The translations under genes were made by a program, and so were the position numbers. Below are positions 1-24,451 of a stretch of 64,000 nt of DNA, one piece after another. Position 1 is the first letter of the stretch. Each line of letters begins with the position of its first letter. The notes under the pieces are model-generated. The model made no database searches, was not told the origin of the DNA, and saw only the letters and a list, made by a program, of their open reading frames with translations. Source of the stretch: Sphingobium baderi (GTDB taxonomy: Bacteria; Pseudomonadota; Alphaproteobacteria; Sphingomonadales; Sphingomonadaceae); assembly GCF_001456115.1 (NCBI RefSeq), contig NZ_CP013265.1:124001-188000 (forward strand). The letters are read 5' to 3'.

Positions 1-407
1 TTGACCTTCCTCGCGCCTAGCCCCCCCACCCCGGCATCGGCGAGACGTTCTCCCCATCCCGGCAAGTCAGGCACGATCGCGCGGAGCTGGGGCTGAAAGT
101 CCTGCAATACTGACCAACAAAATCCGTGAATGGTCTCCGGCCGAACCGCCGGGTGGGCCTGAACGCGCGCGATAATCTCATCCTTCGCCACGTTCGTGAA
201 CGTGATGCAACCAATCTGTTGGCGCTTACGCACAAGTTCCGTACCGCGAAGTTCGATCAGGCGGCGCAGCGCCTTTTCTAGGGAATATGTCTTGCCTGCG
301 CCCGCGCCTGCCTCGAGCCGGAAGCTTTGTCCGGCATCGAAGCACGCATAGACACGCTCAAGTGCAAGGCGGCCGGCCGCGTCGGCGGCGGTCTCTTCGT
401 CAGCCAT
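1..407 (-). CDS. GajB-like UvrD/Rep-family helicase, N-terminal part (runs off left edge)
   Basis: The minus-strand frame is open from the ATG at 407 to the window edge, giving about 135 residues. It holds a P-loop GAGAGKT, a motif like the UvrD Ia region (ITFTNVAKDEI) and TIHGFCW, which resembles the TFHSFC helicase motif. These are superfamily 1A helicase signatures. The gene overlaps the end of the upstream OLD-family nuclease gene by 8 bp, so the two are translationally coupled. An OLD/TOPRIM nuclease followed by a UvrD-like helicase is the layout of the Gabija antiphage system (GajA-GajB), in which the pair acts on phage DNA. The helicase body (motifs II-VI) lies outside the window, so its integrity cannot be judged. 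It could also be the helicase of another class 2 OLD pair. Confidence 0.8.
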   Translation of the reverse strand, partial: MADEETAADAAGRLALERVYACFDAGQSFRLEAGAGAGKTYSLEKALRRLIELRGTELVRKRQQIGCITFTNVAKDEIIARVQAHPAVRPETIHGFCWSVLQDFQPQLRAIVPDLPGWGERLADAGVGGLGARKV

Positions 408-2466: not shown

Positions 2467-2625
2467 TTTCCCCCCTATTTTGGCGCTATATAACCCGGGC
2501 GATGAACCCTAGCGTCAGCGCGCCCGACGCCATCGGCTTGGGCGCCGATCACCTGGACGTCCGCACGGCGGAACCAAGGATCGGTCCCGAAGATGATCAT
2601 GGCGCTGTCCTCTAGCCGCATCGCG

Positions 2626-6066: not shown

Positions 6067-6068
6067 TG

Positions 6069-7322: not shown

Positions 7323-7413
7323 GGTGATGTTCCCCCCTGGCAGTCAGTGCCTACCGTTTATGAAGATAAGAGCGGCAAATGGAGACGTTGGCCATTTGCC
7401 GAAGCGCAGCTTC

Positions 7414-10400: not shown

Positions 10401-10884
10401 CGATGCAATATCCAACGTCGCTGACCAGCAGGAAAGGTGGCCAGCCATGTGAGCGGGGCAAATTCTTAGCGTAGCCCTCCGCTTGACTTGCAGCTCGCTG
10501 CATAGCGCCGGTCCATGCAGCGGTGTCTCGACGAGCCATGCCGCGCTTGAAGCGGTCCTCCGCAGTCTGGCCAAAGAAGTCGCGAAGCGAGTAACCTTGA
10601 CCAGCGTCGACTGCCGCCAGGTCGGCACTGCTACCTTGCTTAGCCTCTAAGATGAAACTGCCACGCTTATAGCAATCAATCCAGCCGTTGGATGTAGCGC
10701 CATCAATCTCGGTTTTGATGACATGACGTTCGAAGACGTAATCATTCTGCGCTGTGTCACTTAGCGTTGGCCGCGGGGCCTCTACGCCGAGCAGTTGACA
10801 CAGATCGGTTAGAAACAATTGTGTGTTGGCTCGCTCGTTGCCACCTGCGGGTGCCCACTTCGCAATAAAATCTTCGACGTCCAC
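7414..10884 (-). CDS. MmeI-like type IIL restriction-modification enzyme with C-terminal winged-helix-like extension
   Basis: One 1156-residue chain carries both activities. Asp70, Glu80 and Lys82 form a D-x9-E-x-K endonuclease motif (in GWIDCYKRGSFILEAKQ), the spacing published for MmeI. The helical spacer (FTMFAEDTGLIPKASF, near 251-266) follows. The N6-adenine methyltransferase then has SAM motif I LDPACGTGNF (425-434) and catalytic NPPF (590-593). The target recognition domain should lie between about 620 and 950. MmeI itself is about 920 residues. The extra ~110 residues at the C terminus include KPLAPKDVARAFKGK and end in EDGRYAA, which looks like a winged-helix domain. The likely role is to cut unmethylated foreign DNA at a fixed distance from an asymmetric site. 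It sits between conjugation genes and YhaO. The recognition site cannot be read from sequence. Confidence 0.87.
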   Translation of the reverse strand: MDVEDFIAKWAPAGGNERANTQLFLTDLCQLLGVEAPRPTLSDTAQNDYVFERHVIKTEIDGATSNGWIDCYKRGSFILEAKQGSSADLAAVDAGQGYSLRDFFGQTAEDRFKRGMARRDTAAWTGAMQRAASQAEGYAKNLPRSHGWPPFLLVSDVGYCIDVYADFQRNGKGYAPFPDRRRYRITLDELRDKTVRERLAAIWTMPMSLDPSAEAARVTRKIADHLAVLAQGIEAREQDPDRVAAFLMRLLFTMFAEDTGLIPKASFSALLKKVRDRPELLAPQLSQLWEAMDTGGLAFGLGEAGEVVRQFNGYLFKDASALALDQREINVLIDAAASDWRQVEPAIFGTLLERALNAKERAKLGAHFTPRAYVERLVGPTVMEPLRADWEGARTAATLAAEAGDKETARLEVERFHTKLANIVILDPACGTGNFLYVALARLKELEGEVLELLEALGDERYLLELGSHTITPANFHGLEINPRAAQIAQLVLWIGYLQWHFRVNGEDRMPEPPVLRDVRTIIPADALLDWDEKLPEMENGEPKTIWDGTSMKPHPVTGRPVPDHSGRLTVYRYVNPRRQVWPEADFIIGNPPFIGCRRMRKRLGSPYVDTLRSVYGDLSGEIDFVTYWWARSAEQVANGSVRGFGLITTKTIAQSSNRSVLSRYLDPERGGKLYLTFAIPNHPWHDQETTAAVRIAMTAAAAGQGAGRLSSVSLEKRKKGETLLEFEEQVAPINIDLTTGANVAGATSLRANGNICRMGVKMSGDGFKINTEQRARFIADGVPPERMPLVVAGTDVTESQSNTYALDFFDIETEDELHDRFPGVHRYLFDHVKPERDENDREQYRLNWWRFAEPRPRLRAAISGLRRYIVTSETATERFFKFIPSAGRLVDGSVIAIASDDPYVLGVVSSTAHTVWALRAGGRMGSGDDPRYQNETCFDPFPFPPSVPELEQRIRIAARKLDRLRRKVLARHSDLTLTALYTTLARMRDAKGGVLDPKYRSVAERGEVSLIRHYHQQIDEAVAEAYGWPRDLEHEEMLVRLVALNDERAEEERAGQIRWVRPSFQAKSLRKKPAQVVLQLRRGTKAKKVERDWPSALPEQVVAVASVVARSAKPLAPKDVARAFKGKRASTVAPVLDALAGMGMVRKLEDGRYAA

Positions 10885-10963: not shown

Positions 10964-11848
10964 CTATCGACTGCGAGATCGCTGGATAGGTGGGTGAACC
11001 TTAGACGATTCCTGTCGGCCGGACGCGACTTTGACAGGCCCCCGTTCCCGTGTATCCCTGACCGTGGCAGGACGAATTTGATGACCCTGTTCGACGTGGT
11101 TTCGCAGTTTCGTGGTCGCGACCTTCATAACACGCGAGATCGCTTCGGGATTGTCGAACAATGCGGTTCGCACGACCGCCTCGATCACTCGCAACTGACT
11201 TTGCGCGGCTCGCTCGTTTCTGTCTCCGGGCGCCTCAGGTCGGGATCGCGTCGGTCGCTCGCGAGCCTGTGACTGACCTCGGCCGGACTCCAGGCTGATT
11301 GATGGAACGGCAGCCGGCGCAATACTGTTGCGGCTCTTGTCTCGCCGTAGCCGATCCAATTCTTGTAGGTCGCGTTCGTTCGGCCGATATCCTCGTACTT
11401 CCAATCCTTGGCGACTGGCCTCGAGCCATGCTGCCCGGCGGAAGGCTTCGCTGCCAGTAAGATGAACATTCGACCATCCGCGATGCCGGGCGATGGCGAC
11501 GAGATCACGCACGACCTCCTCACTCTCGCTCGAGGTGACAAGACGCCGCCCTTGGTCCCGAAATGCAGGCTCTTTTGCCTGCGCCGTCGTGAAGTAGGCC
11601 GGTTCGCCCGACCATTTGCCGGTCGACGAAAAGTAGCGCTTTCGCAGGGGCTCCGGTATGTCGCCGGCAGAAATTGATCGGGGCTCGACCCCTGCCCCCT
11701 CCTTGCCTTTGTTAGGGGTGCCGGGATCCTTGGGAATGTCGTCCCGCGTGTCTTTCCCAGAACGCGGTGCGGACTGACCTTCACCGATTGAAATGGCATT
11801 GGCGCGCTTCCTGGCGCCCCGCGAATTCTCGGACTTCTCAGCGGACAT
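10964..11848 (-). CDS. LPD7-domain conjugation-associated protein
   Basis: I place the start at the ATG at 11848 because GGAAAGGA lies just upstream and it overlaps the virD4 stop by 11 bp; the open frame reaches further upstream but shadows virD4. The 294-residue protein has a charged N terminus, then a segment (about residues 75-175) with YFSSTGKWSGEPAYF, FRDQGRRLVTSS and VRDLVAIARHRGW. This resembles the LPD7 polyvalent-protein-associated domain found in relaxases and phage/plasmid polyproteins. The rest is Arg/Ser/Gln-rich and looks disordered. It follows the coupling protein, where many alphaproteobacterial conjugation operons carry such a protein. No nuclease motif is visible. Its precise function is unknown. 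Confidence 0.72.
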   Translation of the reverse strand: MSAEKSENSRGARKRANAISIGEGQSAPRSGKDTRDDIPKDPGTPNKGKEGAGVEPRSISAGDIPEPLRKRYFSSTGKWSGEPAYFTTAQAKEPAFRDQGRRLVTSSESEEVVRDLVAIARHRGWSNVHLTGSEAFRRAAWLEASRQGLEVRGYRPNERDLQELDRLRRDKSRNSIAPAAVPSISLESGRGQSQARERPTRSRPEAPGDRNERAAQSQLRVIEAVVRTALFDNPEAISRVMKVATTKLRNHVEQGHQIRPATVRDTRERGPVKVASGRQESSKVHPPIQRSRSR

Positions 11849-13802
11849 GGGCTGTCCTTTCCTGGATAATGGATGTGGATGCCTGCCCGACCGCTGGCAC
11901 AAGCGCCCGCTCGACCATCGCCGACACGAAGGCGATCGCGGCGGCCTCGTCGCCCGGGGGCGGCAGTTCGGCCAGGTCGCCCAGAACCAGCATGTCATCC
12001 GTGATCTCGGCCGCACCTGCTAGCTCGGCGTCGGTCATTTCCCGCATCACAATTTCCTCCTGTATGGTCCCGCCCGAGCTTGTCGCCGGTTGCTGTGGGG
12101 CGCCGCTCAGACCGGGTGTACCAGCGCCCTGCCGCGCTGAAGCCGGCGTAGGTGGGGAAAGCATTGCCGCGATTGGACGGGCGGACGGCACAGGCGGAGC
12201 AACCACCCGCCGAGTGAAGCGCGGCATCCGGTAATAGGCGATCTTGCGCCCTCGAATTGGGGGGATGCCGGCGCGAAGGAGCAGGAGCTCGTTCTTCGGC
12301 AGCTGCATGAGCTCTTGCGGCAGCAGGAGCGCGCGGCGCTGATCAGATTCCGAGATGCTCCGGTTCGCCAGTAGCCCGTGGATGGTACGGCTGCGGGATT
12401 TCACGTTCATCGTGAAAAAGCCGAGCCGTTCGGAAAGTTCGTTCGCGACCTTCAGCTCCTTAGGCGTGAAGACAACCTCGAGGCCGCAATTGGCGATGAT
12501 CTCGTCGGTGACATCGGGACCGTAGATTGCGCGAAGCTGGGATCGGCTCTGAATGACCGGAACCAGGCGCAGGCCATAGCCGGCGACGTAGGAGAAGCCG
12601 CTCGCAATCACCGAGGCTTTGCCGAGCCTGGCGAACTCGTCGAGCAGGACCAGGACCGGGACATTGCTAGCGCCCTCAGGAAGGTCGCGGGTGTTGAGAT
12701 CCACGAGTTGCTGCAGGAACAGACTGTAGATCGGCGCGATGCGGTCGATATTGTCAGGCGACACGCCAAGGTAAATCGACATGCGCCGACGCCGCACCTC
12801 GCGCAGGTCGAAGTCGCTCTCCGAGGTGGCGGTATCCACCATGGGGTTGAGCCAGAGATTGAGCCGTGCGGTGATGGTCTGCTTGATCCCGGAAAAGGTG
12901 TTGTCCGAGGCCGAGGTGAAATCTTGGATCGCGGACACGCAAGCTTGGCTGAGGCGCTGGCCCACCCTGCGAGCTTCCTGAAGCGCTGCGGGAAGGTCGC
13001 TCTTGGGATCCCCGCTCGTGAGGCGGCGGTATATCTCGCCGATGGTGAAGGGCAGGCCCGGGTTGGATGCGACCAGGGCGCCGACGCCGACAAAGGCCGC
13101 TCGCGCGGCCTCCGCCCAGAAGGGATCGGATCGCTCGGGCGCGGGGAACAGCATGCCCGCGATCTTCTGCAGCTCGTTGATGACTTCGGTGTCATCAGTC
13201 CGCCTGATGTGCGCCAGGGGGTTGTACCGCGCCGTCCGCCCCTCCGCGTCGAGCGGATCGAACAGATGCACGGCTTGGCCGGCCCGTGCCCGATAGCCGG
13301 CGCTTGCGCCCCAGTTCTCCCGCTTCACGTCGAGCACGATCACCGAATCTGGCCAGGTCAGCAGATTGGGAATGACGACGCCCACGCCCTTGCCCGCTCG
13401 CGTGGGCGCCTCGAGCAGAACATGCTCGCTCCCGCCGAATATCAGGAAACGTCCAGCCTTGCGGCCGACAACGATGCCGGCAGCGTCGCGAAGGCCCTCC
13501 CGCCGGATCTCGCCTTCGCGCGCAAACCGGGCGGTGCCGTGCAATGCCGGCCCGCGGCGCAGAATCCCGATTGCGAGGAGCCCGACCACAACAGCGCCCG
13601 CCAGAGCCCCGCGCTTTAGCCAAAGAATAAGCAGCGGGTCCGCCCGATAGTACCACAACCATGCGGGCAAGGCCGTGATGTCGGTGTTCGGGCCGATCTG
13701 GCCCATCCCAAAGAGGGCAACTGGCACGGCGATGGCGCAGCACAATAAGGTGCCGCCGGCAACGGACAGGCCGATGATCCAGAAGTTACGCTGCACCGGC
13801 AT
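11838..13802 (-). CDS. virD4: VirD4/TraG-type conjugal coupling protein
   Basis: From the ATG at 13802 the product is 654 residues; the open frame upstream shadows virB11. Two N-terminal membrane segments are visible (WIIGLSVAGGTLLCCAIAVPVALF and the LAGAVVVGLLAIGIL region). They are followed by HGTARFA, the Walker A region LEAPTRAGKGVG and the Walker B VLVLLDEFARLGK. VirD4 is the inner-membrane ATPase that brings relaxase-bound DNA to the secretion channel. The C-terminal ~120 residues are Pro/Ala-rich and end in an acidic segment, fitting a substrate-recognition tail. It overlaps virB11 by 17 bp and the LPD7 gene by 11 bp. The gene looks intact although the channel operon upstream is broken. 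Confidence 0.93.
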   Translation of the reverse strand: MPVQRNFWIIGLSVAGGTLLCCAIAVPVALFGMGQIGPNTDITALPAWLWYYRADPLLILWLKRGALAGAVVVGLLAIGILRRGPALHGTARFAREGEIRREGLRDAAGIVVGRKAGRFLIFGGSEHVLLEAPTRAGKGVGVVIPNLLTWPDSVIVLDVKRENWGASAGYRARAGQAVHLFDPLDAEGRTARYNPLAHIRRTDDTEVINELQKIAGMLFPAPERSDPFWAEAARAAFVGVGALVASNPGLPFTIGEIYRRLTSGDPKSDLPAALQEARRVGQRLSQACVSAIQDFTSASDNTFSGIKQTITARLNLWLNPMVDTATSESDFDLREVRRRRMSIYLGVSPDNIDRIAPIYSLFLQQLVDLNTRDLPEGASNVPVLVLLDEFARLGKASVIASGFSYVAGYGLRLVPVIQSRSQLRAIYGPDVTDEIIANCGLEVVFTPKELKVANELSERLGFFTMNVKSRSRTIHGLLANRSISESDQRRALLLPQELMQLPKNELLLLRAGIPPIRGRKIAYYRMPRFTRRVVAPPVPSARPIAAMLSPPTPASARQGAGTPGLSGAPQQPATSSGGTIQEEIVMREMTDAELAGAAEITDDMLVLGDLAELPPPGDEAAAIAFVSAMVERALVPAVGQASTSIIQERTAHVR

Positions 13803-14790
13803 CGCCCACCTTCGGGTGGAAGTAGACCTCTTCGACCTCAAAGCGACCGCCATGGCGCCGGGTCTGGACGACCACATCGATGAGCATTCGCAAAAGTCCG
13901 CGGATATCATCGCGCGCGAGATCGCGGCCGCCCTCGGATTCCTTGACGAGCAATGTCAGCTGCTCGAAGGCGCCCGCCGCAGAGCCAGCATGGACGGTGG
14001 TGATCGACCCAGGGTGCCCCGAGTTGACGTTGCGCAGGTAGAAGAAGGCGGTGCCGTCGCGCAGCTCCTGCAGCAGGATCCGGTCCGGGCGCATGCGCAG
14101 CGCGCTCTCGAGCAGCTGCTTGGGACCGACCTTCGCACGGCCCTGCCCTTCGCCCGAATAGACCATGTGAACGACATTGCGATGGGGCACGATGAGTTCG
14201 CGCGTGTCCTCGATCGTAAGCAGCCGCTCGTCGGGCGGGATGAGCTGGATAAGCGCTTTCGCCAAGGTCGTCTTGCCGGACCCGGTCGCCCCGCTGACCA
14301 GGATATTCTTGCGCGCGGCGACCGCGACCTTGAAAAAGGCTGGCCAGTCGCCCGCGTCGCGAAGTGCCACCAACTCGGCGTCGGTTTCGGTAAGGCCCCG
14401 GGCGCTCGCGCGCGTCGTGTCAAAGAGGCCAGCGCGTGCGAGCTGGTCGATCGGCAGGGTTACGGTCGAGGGCTTGCGTATCGTAAAGGACGGGCAGCCG
14501 CTCGGCGTCACCGACGGGATCACGATCTGGCAGCGCTCGCCGCCTGGGAGGACGGTCGAACAGATCGGCGTCTGCCCATCGATGTCCTGGTGCGTGAAGC
14601 TTGCCGCGGCGACGGCGAGCGTTCCAAGCCACTCGCTGTCCAGTTCAGGCAACTCATGCCATCGCCACCCCTGCCGGTCCTCGATCCCCGCCTCGCCCGG
14701 GCGGTTGATGACGAGCTCGGTTACATCATCCGGCTCCAGCAACGGAAGAAGCGGTTCGAGATAATGGCGGAGGACGGCGGTATCGCGCAT
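13786..14790 (-). CDS. virB11: VirB11 secretion ATPase
   Basis: This 334-residue hexameric traffic ATPase powers pilus assembly and substrate transfer at the inner face of the membrane. It has the VirB11 N-terminal domain (ELVINRPGEAGIE), Walker A GATGSGKTTLAKAL, an Asp box LLTIEDTRELIVPH, Walker B-like ILLQELRDGTAF and the His box NSGHPGSITTVHAG. All catalytic elements are present and the length is normal. It begins 3 bp after the virB10 stop and overlaps virD4 by 17 bp. Confidence 0.95.
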   Translation of the reverse strand: MRDTAVLRHYLEPLLPLLEPDDVTELVINRPGEAGIEDRQGWRWHELPELDSEWLGTLAVAAASFTHQDIDGQTPICSTVLPGGERCQIVIPSVTPSGCPSFTIRKPSTVTLPIDQLARAGLFDTTRASARGLTETDAELVALRDAGDWPAFFKVAVAARKNILVSGATGSGKTTLAKALIQLIPPDERLLTIEDTRELIVPHRNVVHMVYSGEGQGRAKVGPKQLLESALRMRPDRILLQELRDGTAFFYLRNVNSGHPGSITTVHAGSAAGAFEQLTLLVKESEGGRDLARDDIRGLLRMLIDVVVQTRRHGGRFEVEEVYFHPKVGDAGAA

Positions 14791-14793: not shown

Positions 14794-16011
14794 TTACCGC
14801 CGCAGCTCCAGATTGTAGACATCGGCGAAGTTGAAGTCCTTGGCGACGAAGATACCGACCTCCTCGCCCTGGTTCTTTTTCAGCACCGGCCGGATGTTGA
14901 TGTTGTTCTGGAGCGCGATCGCGGCCCCTTCGCTCGGCGCACGCGTGACATTGTTGAAATTGCCGTTGCCGCTCGATGCGGCCTGCCCGGCAATATAGGC
15001 GGCGTCATCGACGAGCGAGAGTAGGAGCGCGCCGCCGAACCGTGCCCAGAAGAAGCTGTCGACCGCTCCGGCGAGCCCGGCGCGGCCGAGCGCGTCTGAC
15101 CCAGGCGAGGCAAGGTCGATGCGGACGCCTTGTGGCGTCACCGCCCGGGTCCAAAGCACAAAGAGGCGGTTCTGCCCCTGTTGGATGCCCCCGCGATACT
15201 CGCCGAGTACGCGCGTGCCCTTTTCCATGAGCACGACCCGGCCATTCTCGGAATACACGTCCCGTGGAATCAGGCAGGACGTGTATCCAGGCTGTGCGGA
15301 ATTGATGGCCGTCTGAAGGGTGCAGGGAATCAATGTCCCCGCAGTGATCAGAAAATTGCGATTGGGGAGCATCGAGGCTCGCGCTTCGCCTACGGCTGAG
15401 CTTTGTCGCAGCAAGTCCAGCGCATTGGGCGCACCGCCCTCCGTACTCCCTGGCGTTCCTGAATTTTCGGTCGGTTGCGCGCTCGAGGCCGCCGCCGGGC
15501 CTTGCGAGGTCTCTCCACCGAGATCGCGCCCGCCATAGGCGATGAGTGTCGACCGTCGCGCCTGGTCGGCCAGGTTCGGCCGGGCGCCTGACGGGCCGGG
15601 CGCTGCACCGGGCTGCATGGCAGGGACGATCTGACCGTCGGGGCCAGGAACCCCGGCTGCGGGATTGAGCACCGGTGCGTTGGGATCGTTCCCGCCTGCG
15701 CCGAGCGGTCTCGGCTGCGGCGCGACCGCCGCGTAATCGACGGTTTCCCGGGCCACGATATCGCGCCGCTCTTGGGCCGCCCCGCCCGGTGCAGTGAGGT
15801 CACGATTGGAGGCCTGTTGGCTCGTTCCGGAATTAACCCACAGGATGCCGAGTACCATCGCCGTGCCGGCAAAGATGAGGGCGGTATTACGCTTGGAAGG
15901 CGTCATCCCCCCGATCGGCTCGATACCGCGCTCGTGCAGGATCTCGTCTTTTTCTGGCGTGAGATCGGCGCTCGGCAGAGGGCGCGAAACGGAGGATGGA
16001 TCTTCAACCAT
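14794..16011 (-). CDS. virB10: VirB10 channel scaffold protein
   Basis: The 405-residue protein has a cytoplasmic N terminus, one membrane helix (NTALIFAGTAMVLGILWV, about residues 42-59), a Pro/Gly-rich periplasmic linker and a C-terminal TrbI/VirB10 domain. That domain includes LIPCTLQTAINSAQPG, VYSENGRVVLMEKGTRVLG and the conserved FVLWTRAVTPQGVRI. VirB10 spans both membranes and couples ATP use to channel opening. It lies 3 bp after virB9 and 3 bp before virB11. No damage is visible. Confidence 0.95.
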   Translation of the reverse strand: MVEDPSSVSRPLPSADLTPEKDEILHERGIEPIGGMTPSKRNTALIFAGTAMVLGILWVNSGTSQQASNRDLTAPGGAAQERRDIVARETVDYAAVAPQPRPLGAGGNDPNAPVLNPAAGVPGPDGQIVPAMQPGAAPGPSGARPNLADQARRSTLIAYGGRDLGGETSQGPAAASSAQPTENSGTPGSTEGGAPNALDLLRQSSAVGEARASMLPNRNFLITAGTLIPCTLQTAINSAQPGYTSCLIPRDVYSENGRVVLMEKGTRVLGEYRGGIQQGQNRLFVLWTRAVTPQGVRIDLASPGSDALGRAGLAGAVDSFFWARFGGALLLSLVDDAAYIAGQAASSGNGNFNNVTRAPSEGAAIALQNNINIRPVLKKNQGEEVGIFVAKDFNFADVYNLELRR

Positions 16012-16014: not shown

Positions 16015-16872
16015 TCATTCCTGCGGATGTGTGATGGTGCGCTCGACATGGGGCGACCCGGTGTTCGTCCCATGATCGACCCCATAGGGTTCTGGCGCCT
16101 GATTATAGATGCACAGCACCTCGCCGCCCCGCCGAAGGCGCAGCTGACGCGCCACCAGATGGACGACGACGAATTCGTCACGGACGTCGAAGGGAACCAG
16201 CGTCTCAGACCCGTCTGGTCGCACCAGATATATAGCCGGCACCTCGCGGTTCGCTGGGAAACGCAACACCGTGAACTGCCCGTTATCGGAGACCTCCGAC
16301 GGCTGAAGCTCGCTGGAGCCCTGCACCTTGTAGTTCATGTTGCGAGGCCCTTCGACGACCCCATGATCGAGAGCGCCGCGAACGGCCCGGCTCTCCAGGG
16401 CAGCCGCCTGCATGGCAATCTGCGCGGCCCTGAGACGCGCGGCGCGGTCTGCATCGTCCCTGGGATATCGGAACCGCACCTGAAAATAGGCTTGGCCGTT
16501 GCGGCCCGTGATCGGACCGCTGCGAGCGGTCAACTCGAACGCATAGCTGCGCAATTCGCCTCCGCGCGACGTGGTGACGATGAGATTGGTCGGTCCGGCA
16601 CGCTCACGCGGCTTGAGGAACAGGATGTGCCCGGCGACGGCGACCTCCCAAGATACGGTGTCGCCCAGCGCGACGTGCTGGATCGTCTCATCGTCGCTCA
16701 GGACAATCTGCGTTGCGGTCCGGAACGTGCCGACGATCCGATAGACCTCGGTCTCTTCATATTCGACGAACTTGACGCGCGGGTCGGACGGACCACCTCG
16801 CGGAACTTCGACCGCGTGCGCCGCCGTTACAGGCACCAGCGCGCAAATGATGGCGGCGGAGAGCGCCCTCAT
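16015..16872 (-). CDS. virB9: VirB9 outer-membrane channel protein
   Basis: I start at the ATG at 16872, which overlaps the virB8 stop as ATGA and yields a signal peptide (MRALSAAIICALVPVTAAHA). The 285-residue product has the VirB9/CagX N-terminal domain (DPRVKFVEYEETEVYRIVGT, then FLKPRERAGPTNLIVTT) and the C-terminal domain that packs against VirB7 and VirB10 (MNYKVQGSSELQPSEVSDNG, EVPAIYLVRPDGSE). It forms the outer-membrane ring of the channel. The frame upstream of 16872 shadows virB8. Confidence 0.93.
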   Translation of the reverse strand: MRALSAAIICALVPVTAAHAVEVPRGGPSDPRVKFVEYEETEVYRIVGTFRTATQIVLSDDETIQHVALGDTVSWEVAVAGHILFLKPRERAGPTNLIVTTSRGGELRSYAFELTARSGPITGRNGQAYFQVRFRYPRDDADRAARLRAAQIAMQAAALESRAVRGALDHGVVEGPRNMNYKVQGSSELQPSEVSDNGQFTVLRFPANREVPAIYLVRPDGSETLVPFDVRDEFVVVHLVARQLRLRRGGEVLCIYNQAPEPYGVDHGTNTGSPHVERTITHPQE

Positions 16873-17567
16873 CGGATCACCTCCGGATCGGCACGATAGT
16901 TTTCGACCTGGAATCCCAGCGGGTTCCGGTAGCGATCGCCTTCCGCCATGGGCGCGTTGGCGTAGGCGAACGTGATTGTGGCGATCCAATCGCTGTTCTG
17001 AACGTCGGTCTCGGTCTGGACCGTCCGCGTGAACCGCACATTGGCGACGCGATCATTGATGAAGGCGATGTTGCGCACGCGCGCTTGCACGACCGCATTC
17101 TTGCCCCAGACATTTTGGGGACTTGCACCATTGTTGCTGCTATAGAAACGCGCCCAGCGCTGCTGTTCAGTCGGTTGCGAGAGGATCGTCACGAACCGAA
17201 AATTTTCTTCGGCCGCTGCCGGGATCCAGCTTTCGCGGGTTCTCACATACTGGGCGAGGAAGTATTTGGTGACCGCCTCATCGTAGCGCATCGGCCGCTG
17301 GGTGAGCGCGGTCTGGACATCTACTGCGCCGGTGGTCTGGTTGACGCGAATAACATAGGGGACGACAGTCTTGAGAGGCGTCAGAGCCGCAACTGCAAAG
17401 ATCGATGCTGCGGCCAGGAGTGAGGCGATGGCCGCGATGCTCCAAGCGATGCGGGTCGAGCGCAGCGCGTTCCGGATCCTGTCCTGATCCCAGCTTCGTG
17501 CGTCCCGGAAATAGCGCTGCAGCCCCGACGCCGGCACCGCCTCCGAGCGGTCATCAGCAGCTCGCAT
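16869..17567 (-). CDS. virB8: VirB8 inner-membrane channel protein
   Basis: The 232-residue bitopic protein has a short cytoplasmic N terminus (YFRDARSWDQDRIR), one membrane helix (about residues 38-65, SIAAIASLLAAASIFAVAAL) and a periplasmic domain of the VirB8 type (VPYVIRVNQTTGAVDV, VTKYFLAQYVRTRESWIP, FTRTVQTE). VirB8 nucleates assembly of the inner-membrane complex. It overlaps virB7 by 14 bp at its start and virB9 by 4 bp at its end. Confidence 0.94.
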   Translation of the reverse strand: MRAADDRSEAVPASGLQRYFRDARSWDQDRIRNALRSTRIAWSIAAIASLLAAASIFAVAALTPLKTVVPYVIRVNQTTGAVDVQTALTQRPMRYDEAVTKYFLAQYVRTRESWIPAAAEENFRFVTILSQPTEQQRWARFYSSNNGASPQNVWGKNAVVQARVRNIAFINDRVANVRFTRTVQTETDVQNSDWIATITFAYANAPMAEGDRYRNPLGFQVENYRADPEVIR

Positions 17568-17895
17568 AGTGCGGTCCCCTTGGTGCGAACGAGATCTTGT
17601 CGTCCGAGGTAGACGGCGACGGCACGGCGGGCGGCGGGGGCGGATCGCCGTCTCGTGGGTGGGACAGGGGTGGTATGGGCGGCGCAGCTCTTGGTGCCGT
17701 GGTGGCAGGCACTGGCGAGCCAGGCAGGACGCTTCCGTAGATGTTCACGTCTCGCAGGCGATGACCATTGCAAACCGCGAGCTTCTTGGGTCCGGAAGCA
17801 CAGCCCGCGACGCCGAGCACAGCTAAGCCACCGACCAGGCAAGCGACGCTGCGGCGGAAGCTCGAGGCGGAAATTCGCGGAAAAAGGAAAGTCAT
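17554..17895 (-). CDS. virB7: VirB7-like outer-membrane lipoprotein
   Basis: The 113-residue product has a lipoprotein signal peptide ending in the lipobox LGVAGC, with the cysteine near residue 32. A short region NGHRLRDVNIYGS follows, then a long Pro-rich tail. Position between virB6 and virB8 and the lipobox support VirB7, which stabilises VirB9. It is longer than classical VirB7 (about 50 residues) because of the Pro-rich tail. Assignment rests on context and lipobox rather than sequence identity. Confidence 0.72.
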   Translation of the reverse strand: MTFLFPRISASSFRRSVACLVGGLAVLGVAGCASGPKKLAVCNGHRLRDVNIYGSVLPGSPVPATTAPRAAPPIPPLSHPRDGDPPPPPAVPSPSTSDDKISFAPRGPHYASC

Positions 17896-17907
17896 GATGA
17901 TGCCTCA

Positions 17908-18159
17908 CTACGCCGCTTCGATGGTGCCGCCGCGACGAGCGGCGCGCTCCAAGTTGCGGCTGTTGCGCATGACGCGACGCTGTCGGAAGGGAGATGCCAT
18001 TGTGCCCCAGGCCGTTCCGGCGAAAGCGCCCACACCTGCAGCGGCGCCCCCGGCTATTCCCGTCGCGATGGCGGGCGCTTGGAAGAAGAAGATAGTTCCT
18101 AGAAAGAGGTAAACTGCGAACAGAACCGCACCGATCGTCACATCGGCCTTTGATTCAGC
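17908..18159 (-). pseudogene. virB6: virB6 remnant: last ~83 codons only
   Basis: The reading frame comes straight out of the IS terminal inverted repeat with no start codon of its own at the junction. It encodes a membrane segment (TIGAVLFAVYLFLGTIFFF), then QAPAIATGIAGGAAAGVGA and a basic tail. The aromatic-QAP-x-(I/L)-A-x-x-x-x-GGA pattern is the conserved C-terminal part of VirB6/TrbL inner-membrane channel proteins. A full VirB6 is about 300 residues, so some 220 residues are missing. A GTG at 18141 could start a 77-residue peptide but not a working VirB6. Confidence 0.82.
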
Positions 18160-18244
18160 TGTCCGCCGTCAGCACCGATGGCACAGATTTGAGGTTGTGA
18201 TTTAAGGAGGATCTGGGCTTCGTCGTAGTGACGAAGGAACGAAG

Positions 18245-18631
18245 ATGAAGCCCAGATCCTCCAATGTAAAATCGCCCGCCAAGGCCCCAGCAGAGCGGGT
18301 AGTGAAGGACATCCGCCGACAGACCCGGCGCCACTTTTCGGCCGAGGACAAGATCCGCATCGTGCTGGATGGCCTGCGCGGGGAAGACAGCATCGCCGAG
18401 CTATGCCGCAAGGAAGGCATTGCCCAGAGCCTGTATTACACCTGGTCGAAGGAGTTCATGGAAGCTGGCAAGCGCCGCCTGGCCGGCGACACCGCCCGTG
18501 CCGCGACCACCGGAGAGGTCCAGGACCTGCGCCGCGAAGCCCGGGCCCTGAAGGAATGCGTGGCCGATCTGACACTGGAAAACCGTCTGCTCAAAAAAAG
18601 CATGGTCGCGGATGGGGGCAACGACGAATGA
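18245..18631 (+). CDS. IS3-family transposase OrfA (helix-turn-helix, leucine zipper)
   Basis: This 128-residue OrfA has the IS3/IS911-type HTH (FSAEDKIRIVLDGLRGEDSI then AELCRKEGIAQSLYYTWSKE) and a leucine-heptad C terminus (VQDLRREARALKECVADLTL). It binds the terminal repeats. A run of seven A followed by G (18593-18600) lies near its end, 28 bp before the orfB ATG. orfB is in the -1 frame, so programmed -1 slippage there would make the OrfAB transposase, as in other IS3 elements. Confidence 0.93.
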   Translation: MKPRSSNVKSPAKAPAERVVKDIRRQTRRHFSAEDKIRIVLDGLRGEDSIAELCRKEGIAQSLYYTWSKEFMEAGKRRLAGDTARAATTGEVQDLRREARALKECVADLTLENRLLKKSMVADGGNDE

Positions 18632-19608
18632 GGTATCCCGCATCCGAGAAGCTCGAGATCATCAGAACCGTCGAGCAGTCGCACCTGTCGGCCAAGCGCA
18701 CGCTGGACCAACTCGGCATCCCTCGTCGGACATTCTACCGCTGGTATGATCGCTACCTCGAAGGCGGGCCGGAGGCGTTGGAAGATCGGCCATCGGCGCC
18801 GAGCCGGGTGTGGAACCGCATCCCGGCGGGCATCCACGACCAGATCATCGAGCTGGCGCTGGAACAGTCTGAGCTGAGCCCCCGGGAACTGGCCGTGCGC
18901 TTCACCGATGGGCAGCGCTACTTCGTGTCGGAATCCACGGTTTACCGCCTGTTGAAGGCCCACGACCTGATCACCAGCCCGGCCTATGTCGTGATCAAGG
19001 CTGCCGATCAGTTCCACACGAAAACCACGCGGCCGAACGAGATGTGGCAGACCGACTTCACCTACTTCAAGATCATCGGGTGGGGCTGGATGTATCTGTC
19101 GACCGTGCTCGACGACTTCTCACGCTACATCATCGCCTGGAAGCTGTGCACCAACATGCGAGCCGAGGACGTCACCGACACGCTGGACCTCGCCCTGGCG
19201 GCTTCTGGTTGCGACAGCGCCACGGTGCTGCACAAACCCCGGCTACTCAGCGATAATGGCCCCAGCTACATCGCGGGTGAGCTGGCGGAATACATCGAGG
19301 CCCGGAAGATGAGCCATGTCCGCGGCGCCCCGTGTCATCCCCAAACCCAGGGCAAGATCGAGCGCTGGCACCAGACCCTGAAAAACCGCATCTTGCTGGA
19401 AAACTACTTCCTGCCCGGCGACCTCGAAGCCCACATCGAGGCCTTCGTCGAGCACTACAATCACCAGCGATACCACGAGAGCCTGGCCAACGTGACGCCT
19501 GCCGACGCCTACTTCGGCAGGGCTCCGGCAATCATCAAACTGCGCGAAAGGATCAAGCGACAGACCATCGAACATCGGCGCTTGCAGCACCGCAAGTTCG
19601 CCGCCTAA
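18628..19608 (+). CDS. IS3-family transposase OrfB (DDE integrase)
   Basis: The 326-residue OrfB starts at an ATG overlapping the orfA stop (ATGA). It has an N-terminal HTH (SAKRTLDQLGIPRRTFYRWY) and the rve integrase core with the DDE residues in WQTDFTYFK, LSDNGPSYIA and GKIERWHQTLKN. The last holds the catalytic Glu with the K/R seven residues on. The C-terminal YNHQRYHESLANVTPADAYFG is typical of the IS3 family. All catalytic residues are present, so the element may still be active. Confidence 0.94.
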   Translation: MRYPASEKLEIIRTVEQSHLSAKRTLDQLGIPRRTFYRWYDRYLEGGPEALEDRPSAPSRVWNRIPAGIHDQIIELALEQSELSPRELAVRFTDGQRYFVSESTVYRLLKAHDLITSPAYVVIKAADQFHTKTTRPNEMWQTDFTYFKIIGWGWMYLSTVLDDFSRYIIAWKLCTNMRAEDVTDTLDLALAASGCDSATVLHKPRLLSDNGPSYIAGELAEYIEARKMSHVRGAPCHPQTQGKIERWHQTLKNRILLENYFLPGDLEAHIEAFVEHYNHQRYHESLANVTPADAYFGRAPAIIKLRERIKRQTIEHRRLQHRKFAA

Positions 19609-19682
19609 CATCAACCCCCTGACGAGGTCCGCACTCCGCTAATCTACGCCGCGAGTTGTGCCGAATGTTCTGACGACGGACA

Positions 19683-19862
19683 GGCGCCTCCGATGGCGCC
19701 GGCATAGAGCGGGTTGCCGCTGACGATCAAAGTGAGACAGGCGGCAAGCGCGATCGGCAACGAGGCTTCGAGCGGCACGCCGAGCCACATCGTCGGGCGC
19801 GTGACCGCGAGAAACAACGTCTCCTCGCGCAGCCGCTCGTCCAGCGCGGCGCTCTCCTTCAC
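19683..19862 (-). pseudogene. virB3: virB3 truncated by the IS element (first ~60 codons)
   Basis: The GTG at 19862 overlaps the virB2 stop (GTGA). The frame encodes KESAALDERLREETLFLAVT, RPTMWLGVP, the membrane segment LPIALAACLTLIVSGNPLYA and GAIGGA, which matches the start and hydrophobic core of VirB3. It then runs into the IS inverted repeat and stops after 12 foreign residues (CPSSEHSAQLAA). VirB3 is normally 90-110 residues, so roughly a third is gone. virB4, which should follow directly, is absent. Confidence 0.85.
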
Positions 19863-20197
19863 GCGCCACCCGTGATGGTGTCGACGATCCACTGCGCGCT
19901 GAAGACGATGAAGATGCCAACAATGACCGTCACCAGAAGGCCGAGGCTGGCGCGCCCGGTGAAAAACATGAACCCGACGATCACGACCGCGATCACCGCG
20001 ATGGTCTTGGCGAAGGTCCCGGTGAGCCAGGTCTTGATGTTCTCCGCCATGGACGTGATGCCGTCGGCACCTTGCGCGTGCGCAGGATCGCTCAGCAGTA
20101 TCGAGACAAGCAGCGCCAATGCCATCACGCCGATGATGCGCAGCAGAAGTCGCGCCCATTGTGGCCGTCCGCCCAGGTGGGCGGTGATTGCTGTCAT
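19859..20197 (-). CDS. virB2: VirB2 major pilin
   Basis: I use the ATG at 20197, which overlaps the virB1 stop (ATGA). The 112-residue prepilin has a long signal sequence ending DPAHAQGADG and two hydrophobic helices (TIAVIAVVIVGFMFFTG and LGLLVTVIVGIFIVFSA). This is the VirB2/TrbC layout. The processed pilin would be about 75 residues. It ends with a 4-bp overlap to virB3'. Confidence 0.9.
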   Translation of the reverse strand: MTAITAHLGGRPQWARLLLRIIGVMALALLVSILLSDPAHAQGADGITSMAENIKTWLTGTFAKTIAVIAVVIVGFMFFTGRASLGLLVTVIVGIFIVFSAQWIVDTITGGA

Positions 20198-20859
20198 GGA
20201 TGCTGTCCTTTCTGAGATGCGGCCCCGTCGCCGAACACCATGAGCGAGGCCTGGCTCGCCCTCGCCGCTGTTTTCCACCCGGCTGCGGCCGGGGGCGAAA
20301 CAGGGGTATCGGGTGGCGGAGCGAAGGCCGGAGCCGCTGGGGCAACGACCGAGTTTCTGGTTGCCGGCGCCGTACTCCGGATCAACGGAATGACGGCCGA
20401 CGCGCTGGCATAGACCCTGGCGACATAGCCGTTGCGAAAGCCGCGCTGCCGGTCGCCGGTATTGTACAGCGACAGGGCGGTCGCGATCGCGTGATCGCGG
20501 CTCGGGGCAAGGCGCGCGACCGCCTGGTAGTTGGTCGCTAGGACACGCGCGGCGGCGGCTAGGTTGGAGCAGGGCTCGAATGCATTTTCCACCGAAAGCC
20601 CCAGCCAGCCGAGATTGGCGCTGTTGATCTGCCCCAGGCCGAGATCGATGTTGTAGCCTCGACCAATCAGGCTGCGCGCCGCAGCGATTGCCTGCGCCTT
20701 GGTCGCGGGCTTTGGCGCGCGCACGCCGGGACTATTGACCCCGATTGCGAGACTGTTGAACCGGCTCTCCGTGTGGACGATCGAAATGAGCGTCTCAGGC
20801 GCCACCGTCGGTGCGCAAGCTCCTGCAAGCGAAAGAAGGGTGGCGACATCGAGGATCAT
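20194..20859 (-). CDS. virB1: VirB1-type lytic transglycosylase
   Basis: The 221-residue protein has an SLT domain with the catalytic Glu in ISIVHTESRFNS, followed by GYNIDLGLGQINSANLGWLG and a C-terminal TALSLYNTGDRQRGFRNGYV. VirB1 opens peptidoglycan for the secretion channel. The first ~20 residues are hydrophobic and may be a weak signal peptide. The C terminus (about 165-221) is Pro/Ala-rich. It overlaps the TrbM-like gene and virB2 by 4 bp each. Confidence 0.92.
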   Translation of the reverse strand: MILDVATLLSLAGACAPTVAPETLISIVHTESRFNSLAIGVNSPGVRAPKPATKAQAIAAARSLIGRGYNIDLGLGQINSANLGWLGLSVENAFEPCSNLAAAARVLATNYQAVARLAPSRDHAIATALSLYNTGDRQRGFRNGYVARVYASASAVIPLIRSTAPATRNSVVAPAAPAFAPPPDTPVSPPAAAGWKTAARASQASLMVFGDGAASQKGQHP

Positions 20860-21257: not shown

Positions 21258-22190
21258 TCACCTCTCTTTTGTTCCGACCGCGCTCGATTTCGGCAATCCC
21301 CCTAGCCGGGGGGGGAGTTGATCGGTTTGCTGCCGCAGGAATTCGGACAGAGCGCCTTCCTGGTCGGGCCGGAGAGCATCGATTGCGGCGAGATGGTCTG
21401 GCGGATCGCCGCCGAGCAGGATGGACGGGCACTGCCCGTCATAATTGCCGAGATTGGGGCGGTGCTGCTGGTAGCCGACCAGCGCGGCAAGCTCGGGATC
21501 GAATGCGCTGGCCACCTCGGGCGGATAGGTCAGCCACTGGTTCTCATAGGGCTTCAGCCAGCCGAGGCAGTAGCTGACGATGATGCCTCGGCGCACCGCG
21601 TTTGAACGATTCGCGCCGGCGCCATGGAGGGTCGATCCCAGGAATATGATCGCCGATCCCGGATCCGCTTCGATGGCGACCGGCTCCGCGCCGTCGTCGC
21701 CCTGCCCGCCATTGTGGCTCCCCGGCCAGACCAGCGTCGCCCCATTTTCGGCCTTGAACGGCGAAATCGGCCACATGACGTTGACGAGATATTCGAGCTC
21801 GCCGGTCGGACCGCGCCACATGTCCTGATCCCGGTGCGGAAATTGCGCTGGCGCCCCCGGGTGCAGCTCGAGCGCTTGCGTGAGGTTGAGCTGGACCGTG
21901 TCGCACCAGGGCTCGAGGATAGCGTGGACGAGGCGCATGACGGCAGGGTTTTGGACAAGACTTTCAACCGTCGGCGCGCGCTTCAGCAGGCCACCGAAGC
22001 GTTTTGTCCGAGGGCCGTAGAATCCGCCCTGGCAGAAAGGCGTGGCGGCAAAACGCGGATGGAGGGATCGATTGATCTCCTCGATGCGTGACCGAGACTC
22101 GACATCCCGCAGGATGCAGAAGCCGTGCTGCCGCAGATTTTCGTCGGCTTTGGTCGCGGCGGAGACGCCGCGCGGTGCGATCGTGGCCAT
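21258..22190 (-). CDS. Phytanoyl-CoA dioxygenase (PhyH) family Fe(II)/2-oxoglutarate oxygenase
   Basis: I start at the ATG at 22190, preceded by GAGGAGGGCG; the longer frame shadows luxI. The 310-residue protein has the iron triad: His119-x-Asp121 in FPHRDQDMW and distal His189 in GSTLHGAGANRS, with an Arg near 200-201 for 2-oxoglutarate. PhyH proteins hydroxylate lipids or small metabolites; the substrate here is unknown. The gene begins 11 bp after luxI, so it belongs to the quorum-sensing operon and could modify the signal or make a co-regulated metabolite (inference). Confidence 0.85.
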   Translation of the reverse strand: MATIAPRGVSAATKADENLRQHGFCILRDVESRSRIEEINRSLHPRFAATPFCQGGFYGPRTKRFGGLLKRAPTVESLVQNPAVMRLVHAILEPWCDTVQLNLTQALELHPGAPAQFPHRDQDMWRGPTGELEYLVNVMWPISPFKAENGATLVWPGSHNGGQGDDGAEPVAIEADPGSAIIFLGSTLHGAGANRSNAVRRGIIVSYCLGWLKPYENQWLTYPPEVASAFDPELAALVGYQQHRPNLGNYDGQCPSILLGGDPPDHLAAIDALRPDQEGALSEFLRQQTDQLPPRLGGLPKSSAVGTKER

Positions 22191-22201
22191 GATCGCCCTC
22201 C

Positions 22202-22813
22202 TCATGCTGCGGCGGGAAGATCGGCAAGGCCGACAGGGCGGAAAATGCCGCTCGCGCGCAGCTGCTCGCGCGTTCGGTCGTCCACATCGATTTGCAAGGC
22301 GACGAGACTTCGCCCTTGCTCGGACGTGGGAAGACCCAATGGTCGGCAAGTCCAGCCGAAACCCAGGATCTGCTGGAACCACGGCCACTCGGCGACCCCG
22401 GTGAAGCTGTGGATCTGGTTGGCGAGGGCATATTCGACGAGCGCGGTGACCAGCTGATTGCGCAGCTCGAGACGCTCCCGGGCGCGCAATTTTCGCGCAA
22501 GGCAAAAGCGGGTGATTTCCAGGATAGCACTGCCGCGCGGCGGCGCTTCCTCGCAAAGATCCGGGAAGATCGTGCCGAGAATATGCTCGTGCGTGGTCGG
22601 CAGAAGCCGTGCGGATGCCCGGTGTTCCCCGTCGTCCCCGGTAACAACGATGTAGACGGCGCGATCATTGTCGAACTGATCGATCTCGTAGCGACCGGCG
22701 ATGACCGGAACGTCCCAGCGAAGAAGATCGACGAAGACCCGCTTGCGCTCCTCGAACATGGAGCGAAACAGGCGGTGTTCCATGGCTTGCGAAAAGCCGG
22801 TCCCGATGTGCAT
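22202..22813 (-). CDS. LuxI-family acyl-homoserine-lactone synthase
   Basis: The 203-residue protein shows the invariant LuxI residues: Arg25, Phe27 and Trp33 (ERKRVFVDLLRWDVP), Glu43, Asp45 and Asp48 (YEIDQFDND), Arg69 (ASARLLPT), and Glu99 with Arg102 (LEITRFC). It should make an N-acyl-homoserine lactone from acyl-ACP and SAM. The acyl length cannot be read. A lux-box-like palindrome lies about 57-72 bp upstream and two LuxR genes precede it in the same direction, suggesting autoinduction. The RBS AAAAGGAGG is strong. Confidence 0.94.
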   Translation of the reverse strand: MHIGTGFSQAMEHRLFRSMFEERKRVFVDLLRWDVPVIAGRYEIDQFDNDRAVYIVVTGDDGEHRASARLLPTTHEHILGTIFPDLCEEAPPRGSAILEITRFCLARKLRARERLELRNQLVTALVEYALANQIHSFTGVAEWPWFQQILGFGWTCRPLGLPTSEQGRSLVALQIDVDDRTREQLRASGIFRPVGLADLPAAA

Positions 22814-22869
22814 GACAGCCTCCTTTTGGTGAGGCCTGTCAGTCGATCAGAGGCGGCTTTTTTGCGTTA

Positions 22870-22885
22870 TCCCCAGTTCTGGGGA
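22870..22885. promoter_or_regulatory. Candidate lux box upstream of luxI
   Basis: TCCCCAGTTCTGGGGA is a perfect palindrome with 7-bp arms and a 2-bp centre in the 74-bp gap between luxR and luxI. The position, about 64 bp before the luxI ATG, suits LuxR-type activation. It differs from the canonical lux box (ACCTGT...ACAGGT), but CCCC...GGGG palindromes serve some alphaproteobacterial LuxR proteins. Confidence 0.6.
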
Positions 22886-22887
22886 GA

Positions 22888-23634
22888 TCATCGGCCGAAC
22901 ACATCGGCAAAGCTGATTTGCCCTTCGAACAAGGCGCGAATGGCGAGGAGGGTGCGCTTGGTGACGCCATAGCGGTCGCGCGCATCCTTCACATGCTGGA
23001 TCACCGTTTCCTGGCCGATGCCGAGGATCTGGCTGATCTCCCAATCGGTCTTGCCCCGCGCGACCAGCGCCACGCATTCGGCCTGCCTTTCGGTCAGGCT
23101 CGGGCATTCGGATTGCGGCGCGTGGATCCGGGAAATCTTGCGTGCCGCTTCGAACGCGAAGCTGCCGACGAGCTGCACGAACGGCAGCTGCCGATGGTCG
23201 AGCATCTCGCCCGCCGCCATCGCGAAGGAACAGGATCCATTGAGCTCGCCAGGAATATGGGCCGGAACGGTGAAGCCGTCGCCCAGCCCGGCCTCGTAGG
23301 CTTCTGCCAGGATCGAGCGATCGGCGGCCGTCAGAGAGATGATCGACTGAACCGCCGACCAGGCAAAGCCCACATTGGTGCGATGGCTGGCGCGGTGGAT
23401 CGGGTCGCTCGCATAGAGGCGTCTCGCCTGGAAGCGCTCCACCCAGTCTTGCGGATAGTCGACGATGTGGACCGAGCGAACCGCAGGCTTCAGGTCGACA
23501 TGATGGACCAGGGCATAGTGCCGAAAGCCCATGGCCTTCGTGATTTCGGCCATCAGGTCAGACAAGGCCGTAGCGTCCTTGATCGCGCCAGCGACAGCGC
23601 AGAAATCCTGAACTTGCCCAAGCCCGATCATCAT
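22888..23634 (-). CDS. LuxR-family AHL receptor/regulator (proximal to luxI)
   Basis: From the ATG at 23634 (or 23631) the product is about 248 residues. An N-terminal autoinducer-binding domain (YALVHHVDLKPAVRSVHIVD, YASDPIHRASHRTNVGFAW) is followed by a C-terminal GerE-type HTH (SLTERQAECVALVARGKTDW, EISQILGIGQETVIQHVKDA). It is in line with luxI and with a second luxR 13 bp upstream. The two receptors share the same HTH pattern and look like a tandem duplication. The frame upstream shadows the other luxR. Confidence 0.92.
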   Translation of the reverse strand: MMIGLGQVQDFCAVAGAIKDATALSDLMAEITKAMGFRHYALVHHVDLKPAVRSVHIVDYPQDWVERFQARRLYASDPIHRASHRTNVGFAWSAVQSIISLTAADRSILAEAYEAGLGDGFTVPAHIPGELNGSCSFAMAAGEMLDHRQLPFVQLVGSFAFEAARKISRIHAPQSECPSLTERQAECVALVARGKTDWEISQILGIGQETVIQHVKDARDRYGVTKRTLLAIRALFEGQISFADVFGR

Positions 23635-23647
23635 ATGGCCGGCGAGA

Positions 23648-24451
23648 TCAGAGCAGCGCTTCCATGTTGAGATGACCATCGCGAACCGCGCGCAGCACCA
23701 GCTGCGTGCGTCGTCGCACGCCATAACGCCTGCGGGCCGATTCAACATATTCGTGCACGGTGTCGCGGCTGAGGCCGAGGATCTGGCCGATCTCCCAGTC
23801 GCTTTTGCCTTGCGCGACGAGCGCGATGCATTCGACCTGGCGAGGGCTGAGAGGGACGCAGGCCAATGGCCCTGCCCTTTCGCCAAGCAGCTCGCGCGCC
23901 CGATCATAAGCGACCGAGCCGAGCAGACGGGCGGTCAGAACCTCTTCTGCACTCAGCGGCTCGTCGCGTGATCGGGCCGCAGTGAAGATCGCCTCGGGCT
24001 CGCCCGGAGTCCGGATCGGCAAACTGTAGCCCGATGCAAGGTCATGATCCCGGGCGCGGTCAAGGATGCCTCGCTGGCGCGGCGTGAGCTCCAGCACGTC
24101 GCCGACACGGTCCCAGGCCAGTCCAGAGGGCGTACGTGCGCAGGCCGCATGAATGGGATCTTCGATATAGTGGCGTTCTTCTAGAACTTCCTCGAGCCAG
24201 GCCGACGGATAGGTTGTGAGGAACAGGCTTTGCTCGTCGCCGCGCCGAAGGTCGATATTGTGAAGCAGCGTGAACCAGCGGAAGCCAAGATCGCGCACGG
24301 CGGCATCGATCGTGCCATGCAGATCGCCAAGGGTTTCAGCACGCTGACAGTCCGTCGCAAAGCGCGTGAGATCATCAAGGCGGCCGCAGTCTTTTATCCT
24401 GTTCGCCATAGGCGACGGAAGCTCGTTCGCGAGGAGACGGCTCGTCCACAC
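23648..24451 (-). CDS. Second LuxR-family AHL receptor/regulator
   Basis: The 267-residue frame (or 253 from the ATG at 24409, MANRIKDC) has an autoinducer-binding domain (FTLLHNIDLRRGDEQSLF, YIEDPIHAACARTPSGLAWD) and a C-terminal HTH (LSPRQVECIALVAQGKSDW, EIGQILGLSRDTVHEYVESA). It is first in the QS run and precedes the other luxR. Neither candidate start has a strong RBS. The pair may act as heterodimers, or one may act as an antagonist (inference). Confidence 0.9.
   Translation of the reverse strand: MWTSRLLANELPSPMANRIKDCGRLDDLTRFATDCQRAETLGDLHGTIDAAVRDLGFRWFTLLHNIDLRRGDEQSLFLTTYPSAWLEEVLEERHYIEDPIHAACARTPSGLAWDRVGDVLELTPRQRGILDRARDHDLASGYSLPIRTPGEPEAIFTAARSRDEPLSAEEVLTARLLGSVAYDRARELLGERAGPLACVPLSPRQVECIALVAQGKSDWEIGQILGLSRDTVHEYVESARRRYGVRRRTQLVLRAVRDGHLNMEALL

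Follow-up and report, generated by a model that had tools for sequence, protein, structure and literature searches.

A probable insertion sequence-associated deletion of virB4 in a conjugation operon of Sphingobium baderi, on a contig with a second transfer system

INTRODUCTION

How a conjugation operon comes to lack virB4, and what this means for the replicon that carries it, are the questions raised by a locus of Sphingobium baderi. The locus lies in a stretch of 64,000 nucleotides, referred to here as the window, which corresponds to C2:124001-188000; contig C2 has 229,716 bp and the genome 4.58 Mb in nine contigs. Within the operon, an insertion sequence stands where the genes between virB3 and virB6 would be expected. 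VirB4, VirB3, VirB5, and VirB6 are needed for a working VirB channel. A search for literature on pSLPG, a plasmid with a closely similar operon, as a conjugative plasmid found none, and among the papers listed for Sphingobium virB4 or for sphingomonad plasmids none appeared specific to the question.

RESULTS

Remaining Genes of the VirB/VirD4 Operon

The operon extends from virB1 to virD4 and is divided by a 1,523-bp insertion sequence into a part that ends with the head of virB3 and a part that begins with the tail of virB6 (Table 1). The initial annotation placed the end of virB3 at about codon 60, at the right inverted repeat of the element, and the start of the virB6 tail at the left one. 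Both positions were borne out: 60 native codons of virB3 are kept, the 61st residue of the frame being encoded by the last bases of the element, and 83 codons of virB6 are kept together with the stop codon. VirB8-VirB11 and VirD4 have kept their full length, with 99-100% identity to their counterparts in pSLPG. The annotation had also described virB7-virB11 and virD4 as intact and the loss as recent; this holds for virB8-virB11 and virD4, whereas virB7 is a candidate by position only. Because the rest of the operon is full length and nearly unchanged, the deletion is recent. Measured against the components of a working MPF_T system, VirB4 is absent, VirB3, VirB5, and VirB6 are incomplete, and VirB8-VirB11 and VirD4 are present. 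A VirB channel that lacks VirB4, with VirB3, VirB5, and VirB6 lost or cut, should be dead.

Genes for a phytanoyl-CoA dioxygenase, LuxI, and two LuxR proteins adjoin virB1 (window 21258-24451), as in pSLPG and pISP0. The LuxI/LuxR neighbors are common to the window and to the operons of pSLPG and Sphingobium fuliginis, and quorum control of the VirB transfer system through them is likely. On the minus strand of window 400-10884 there are defense- or repair-like genes that encode an OLD-type ATPase with a TOPRIM domain, a pair comprising an AAA protein and a phosphoesterase, and an MmeI-type restriction-modification protein.

Table 1. Features of the interrupted operon and of the insertion sequence (window coordinates)
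Feature	Position	Strand	Evidence or remark
LPD7-domain protein beside virD4	10964..12016	-	PF18821, E 1.2e-22
virD4 coupling protein	11838..13802	-	PF02534, E 3.3e-102 (longer frame 11838-13910); 99.2% to pSLPG
virB11	13786..14790	-	PF00437; 99.7% to pSLPG
virB10	14794..16011	-	PF03743; 100% to pSLPG
virB9	16015..16872	-	PF03524 (longer frame 16015-16989); 100% to pSLPG
virB8	16869..17567	-	PF04335; 99.6% to pSLPG
virB7 candidate, small lipoprotein-like protein	17554..17895	-	position only; no Pfam or NCBIfam match
virB6 tail, last 83 codons + stop	17908..18159	-	100% to S. fuliginis residues 239-321 of 321; 88% to pSLPG
Left junction	18159..18160		uninterrupted sister continues without element; alignment with G012:C20
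IS3/IS481-like insertion sequence	18160..19682	+	inverted ends, OrfA/OrfB family matches, four identical genome copies
orfA of element	18245-18631
orfB of element	18628-19608		-1 frame relative to orfA
Right junction	19682..19683		GACA common to element end and lost DNA; alignment with S. fuliginis contig G012:C20
virB3 head, 60 native codons	19683..19862	-	98.4% identical to residues 1-61 of 116, pSLPG VirB3
virB2 (pilin)	19859..20197	-	PF04956, E 9.2e-22; 97.3% to pSLPG
virB1 (lytic transglycosylase)	20194..20859	-	PF01464; 93.2% to pSLPG

DNA Missing Relative to an Uninterrupted Operon

An uninterrupted sister of the operon is present in S. fuliginis DSM 18781 on a contig of 235 kb (G012:C20, NZ_SEON01000008.1). 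In a base-level alignment, 4,211 bp separate the two junctions in the sister, the element is absent, and the 40 bp beside each junction are present letter for letter. The loss of about 4 kb including virB4 at the element, as proposed initially, is thereby confirmed. Both virB4 and virB5 are missing entirely, virB3 has lost its C-terminal part, and virB6 its N-terminal three quarters, so that of VirB5 (238 residues in the sister, VirB4 having 805) nothing remains, and VirB3 and VirB6 are reduced to 60 of 116 and 83 of 321 codons, respectively. The breakpoint on the virB3 side is uncertain by 4 bp because GACA ends both the element and the lost DNA.

The missing 4.2 kb has only distant relatives elsewhere in the nine contigs, the best being on contig C3 (69%) and on C1 (67%). 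The VirB4 family PF03135 has eight matches in the genome, seven on C1, one on C3, and none on C2, where the only VirB4 homologue noted is a distant one (23% identical), the TraC protein of an F-type system. A second virB4, which the initial annotation had suggested looking for, therefore exists in the genome as part of a separate VirB system on C3, and the lost DNA itself does not. The annotation had named virB4-virB5-virB6 elsewhere on the same replicon, as a functional split operon, as the observation that would speak against it; a split operon was rejected, because C2 has neither a virB4 or virB5 nor the N-terminal part of a virB6 of this kind. Collapse of two element copies during assembly, with the 4.2 kb between them dropped, is conceivable for an element that occurs in four copies and exceeds the length of short reads, but such an artefact is very improbable in an assembly that is rated 99.99% complete and includes a 4.1-Mb contig, with the 4.2 kb in none of the nine contigs. 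A 30-mer across the junction had no match in the GTDB contig collection, from which the genome of the window may itself be left out.

Intact and Broken Relatives

The operon was compared initially with nine related loci. The stretch is without notable gap or insertion in near relatives from four other genomes (G004, G008, G012, and G023, the third being the S. fuliginis sister); the roughly 350 bp that separate virB6 from virB5 in G012 are too diverged from pSLPG to align. A search of the plasmid collection PLSDB with a 9.4-kb query matched 193 records, in 16 of which a single place covers at least 80% of the query. VirB4 is listed under the match in all 16. The maximum coverage among them is 84%, and because none exceeds this value none of the 16 carries the element in place. 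Uninterrupted operons, the search for which in related sphingomonad plasmids had been proposed with the initial annotation, do therefore exist, and it was on the S. fuliginis contig that the junctions were mapped. The possibility that relatives naturally lack virB4-virB6 was rejected on the strength of the 16 plasmids with VirB4 and the four gap-free near relatives.

In pSLPG (Sphingobium sp. SYK-6, NC_015974.1) the order is virB1, virB2, virB3, virB4, virB5, virB6, virB8, virB9, virB10, virB11, virD4, according to a gene table in which some genes are named only "type IV secretion system protein" and virB7 is not listed. The operons of pSLPG and S. fuliginis have the same gene order as the one described here, with 93-100% protein identity for the remaining genes, and both are uninterrupted; the operon of the window differs by the absence of 4,211 bp and the presence of the element. 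The DNA at 17900-18134 is 89% identical to pSLPG, as compared with an overall 98% for the part of the operon left of the element. Because the virB6 tail matches S. fuliginis at 100% and the rest matches pSLPG, the operon is a mosaic of two lineages.

Two further plasmids, pC8-2 (CP034356.1) and pSCLO_4 (NZ_AP017658.1), resemble the window in that an operon with 94-95% DNA identity is cut beside mobile-element genes, but their breakpoints and elements are different. In pC8-2 the listed genes reach virB5, a recombinase gene follows 1.6 kb further on, and virB4 and virB3 are unlisted in the 30-kb stretch, although PLSDB gene tables are incomplete and missing listings are no proof of absence. The match in pSCLO_4 is limited to a 2-kb piece around virB8, which lies between IS6100 and a Tn3-type transposon.

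Family and Target Duplications of the Element

The element has imperfect inverted repeats, in which 12 of the 13 terminal bases agree between the ends, and an IS3-type orfA/orfB arrangement in two frames related by -1, with a possible frameshift site, seven A followed by G, at 18593-18600. The best match of OrfB is to the IS481 model (207.5 bits), which is under the cut-off of 224; its score with the IS3 model, 185.8 bits, is above the cut-off of 160. For OrfA there is a weak match (45.4 bits) to the N-terminal portion of the IS3 model. In the accessible part of PMC10045372, duplications of 2-15 bp, mostly 6, are given for IS481 members and of 3-5 bp for IS3 members, and an IS3-type duplication of 3-5 bp was found in none of 40 copies of the present element. 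The earlier label IS3 is thus partly correct, being supported by the model threshold and the -1 frames but not by the higher IS481 score and the lack of a 3-5 bp duplication; the element sits between IS3 and IS481. ISSsp2, an IS3-type element of Novosphingobium sp. KA1 (NC_008308.1), is 89.5% identical in DNA over the whole element but is not the same element, the window copy being at least 99% identical to copies on Roseomonas and Sphingomonas plasmids.

In addition to the window copy on C2, the genome contains three identical copies on C1, which makes four in all, and a partial piece of 269 bp (84%) at C2:204949. Target duplications were assessed as exact direct repeats in the flanks of 40 full-length copies with 83-100% identity: (i) the four of this genome; (ii) 17 mutually identical copies in G007; (iii) one copy from each of 15 other genomes of the genus, to the exclusion of further full-length copies listed and of partial copies; and (iv) four copies from two plasmids, one of Roseomonas mucosa and one of Sphingomonas koreensis. 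No copy has a direct repeat of 3-7 bp. Three have repeats of 8-9 bp (one of 8 bp and two of 9 bp), the rest have no longer repeat either, and a 2-bp flank match occurs in six, as chance allows. Among the 17 identical copies in G007, 16 are without any repeat. Applied to Escherichia coli K-12, the same procedure gives 5 bp for IS2A and 3 bp for IS3B. A duplication of 8-9 bp is probably the native one, and it is absent in 37 of the 40 copies.

The window copy is flanked by no direct repeat (AGC as compared with GGC), as the initial annotation stated, and by none at 8-9 bp. The argument drawn from this absence has little weight: the absence is real, but a missing 3-bp duplication says little about deletion because 37 of 40 copies lack a duplication and the other three show one of 8-9 bp rather than 3. 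The deletion is shown instead by the comparison with the S. fuliginis sister. Exchange of flanks between resident copies was considered as the cause of the missing repeats and rejected: pairs of different copies differ by at least two mismatches over 8-9 bp among the 17 copies in G007 (289 ordered pairs, self included) and by at least four among the four copies of this genome (16 ordered pairs). The AGC match between the left flank of the window copy and the right flank of the copy at C1:3844652 is 3 bp long, which is at chance level. At the C1:1999157 copy, the two flanks are alike at six of eight bases and could be a decayed duplication.

Sites of Other Copies

Directly at its end, the copy at C1:374096-375618 is joined to 1.4 kb of DNA with a counterpart of 99.9-100% identity at C1:871596-873004, within a relaxase-bearing region. 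In that region and in G018:C17 the sequence continues past this point, and it stops at the C1:374096 copy. A block of 9.9 kb is also common to the C1:374096 and C1:871596 regions. On the JS3065 plasmid, the copy occupies a place with 57 bp where a relative has 112 bp, or the stretch has simply diverged. No informative relative was found for the copies at C1:3844652 and C1:1999157. When 15 G007 sites were compared with 14 genomes, none was matched across the joint, at least one flank was found elsewhere for six, and for one site both flanks are in G005 on different contigs; in this comparison at most 20 candidates were scored per genome, and the genomes are of other species, so that breaks of synteny are possible. 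Together with that of the window copy, these sites fit IS-adjacent deletion or insertion at breaks, of the sort described for IS150, IS5, and IS481 (Ngan et al. 2024, PMC11708052). We tentatively raise the idea, which we regard as unlikely, of a lineage intermediate between IS3 and IS481 that makes an 8-9 bp duplication but whose spread is due mostly to adjacent deletion, insertion into broken DNA, and similar events in which flanking DNA is deleted or rearranged. If it is true, nearly every resident copy would mark a rearrangement junction, and the loss of the virB genes would be the product of a habit and not a chance accident.

Origin of the Deletion

The initial annotation offered two mechanisms, a deletion adjacent to the element and recombination between two copies. 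IS-adjacent deletion is favored here as the likeliest, although the second mechanism would leave the same scar. In the latter, homologous recombination between direct copies, one in virB6 and one in virB3, would have left a single copy; it predicts a scar without a repeat, and the four identical copies in the genome show that the element has been active. Against it, the element would have had to insert twice, 4.2 kb apart and in one orientation, in a genome that has only four full copies; none of the 16 well-covered plasmids has one or two copies in the operon; and the 4-bp identity at the right junction, for which the chance is 1 in 256, is not predicted by recombination. We consider recombination between two copies unlikely, at about the level at which it should still be kept in mind. 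For the favored adjacent deletion, the sequence of events may be reconstructed as follows. The IS3/IS481-like element would have inserted in or beside the virB3-virB6 stretch of a P-type (MPF_T) operon like that of pSLPG. The 4.2 kb would then have been taken by a deletion that started from the element and was most likely mediated by its transposase. The loss of virB4 and virB5 and of the greater part of virB3 and virB6 would leave a VirB channel that can no longer be built.

Other Transfer Systems in the Genome

Contig C2 carries a second transfer system, of the F type, with its own relaxase and coupling protein. The region lies outside the window, at C2:209872-229479 and C2:60426-66178. By Pfam it includes TraG, TraH, TraF, TraN, TrbC, TraU, TrbI, and a signal peptidase, and further TraC, TraV, DsbC, TraB, TraK, TraE, and TraL. 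A pilin-like protein scores just below the Pfam cut-off, and TraW was identified solely by comparison with S. yanoikuyae NZ_CP047219.1. The TraI relaxase (MOBF) is encoded by the frame C2:62918-66178 (PF08751, E 3.7e-81), and TraD adjoins it. NZ_CP047219.1 is the closest relative of the region, and each of 17 proteins compared from its F-type region has a counterpart on C2 that covers at least 98% of its length; the comparison included 16 named proteins and one hypothetical protein and left out three other hypothetical genes and one intron gene. In PLSDB this relative is typed by MOB-suite as "mobilizable, MOBF" only, and thus MOB-suite sees no full mating-pair system in it. Among 55 records with DNA similar to the F-type region, 35 are typed conjugative, by whichever system. 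The F-type system looks complete and, on its gene content, would be expected to work. The claim in the initial annotation that transfer would need help in trans is not upheld, the same contig having an F-type system, relaxase, and coupling protein with 17 of 17 proteins at full length. The plasmid can probably still transfer itself, the F-type system being the likeliest remaining route.

The S. fuliginis contig aligns with about 67 kb of C2, which except for 0.5 kb falls within 88-175 kb. Because the F-type genes are outside this S. fuliginis-like part and each of the two parts has a ParB-like gene, C2 looks like a fusion of two plasmids. A MOBP-type relaxase is encoded at C2:118836-120017. 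The ends of C2 share 20 bp within a repeat, which does not settle whether it is one circular plasmid. TniA/TniB/TniQ-like transposition genes are present at C2:84161-87926, just outside the pSLPG-like part, possibly at the fusion site.

The 85-kb contig C3 encodes VirB2-VirB6, VirB8-VirB11, and VirD4, and virB1 was recognized there by similarity. With this set at hand, the cut operon might work in a shared machine in which VirB3-VirB6 are supplied from C3. The C3 proteins are only 32-60% identical to those of pSLPG (VirB6 32%, VirB3 45%, VirB4 59%), and the F-type system on C2, if functional as it seems, makes sharing unnecessary; we regard a shared machine as highly unlikely. A chromosomal remnant of a third VirB operon is found at C1:145000-149000, with a virB1-like transglycosylase gene, virB3, and the first half of virB4, which is cut beside an IS6-type transposase gene.

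DISCUSSION

The locus is read here, with good though not complete confidence, as the scar of a recent IS-associated deletion that should have disabled a probably redundant VirB system on a plasmid that probably still transfers itself by an F-type system. The loss may have cost little, as the replicon, an apparent fusion, also has a MOBF relaxase and an F-type transfer system. The broken VirB system was probably redundant, which would explain the persistence of the loss in this single case.

The event is clear but ordinary, another case of a known route of decay for conjugation machines. Its interest is as a base-resolved example of the death of a conjugation system, by one IS-associated deletion on a replicon with a second system. 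It suggests that fusion of plasmids makes one transfer machine redundant and thereby allows the other to be lost, an idea testable across sphingomonad plasmids. A caution also follows, in that the absence of a target duplication is poor evidence for deletion when the element hardly ever shows one.

Deletions without target duplication that are associated with IS150, IS5, and IS481 are described in the part of Ngan et al. 2024 (PMC11708052) available to us. The cases given there resemble the window in having the element at the deletion junction and no target duplication; they were seen in laboratory lines, whereas the deletion in the window is deduced from a sister plasmid. Mobilizable plasmids arise reductively, according to the accessible portion of PMC11389934. 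C2 is like such plasmids in that mating-pair genes were lost and a MOBP relaxase is kept on the contig. As far as that portion describes them, it is unlike them in keeping a second transfer system, so that it need not become dependent.
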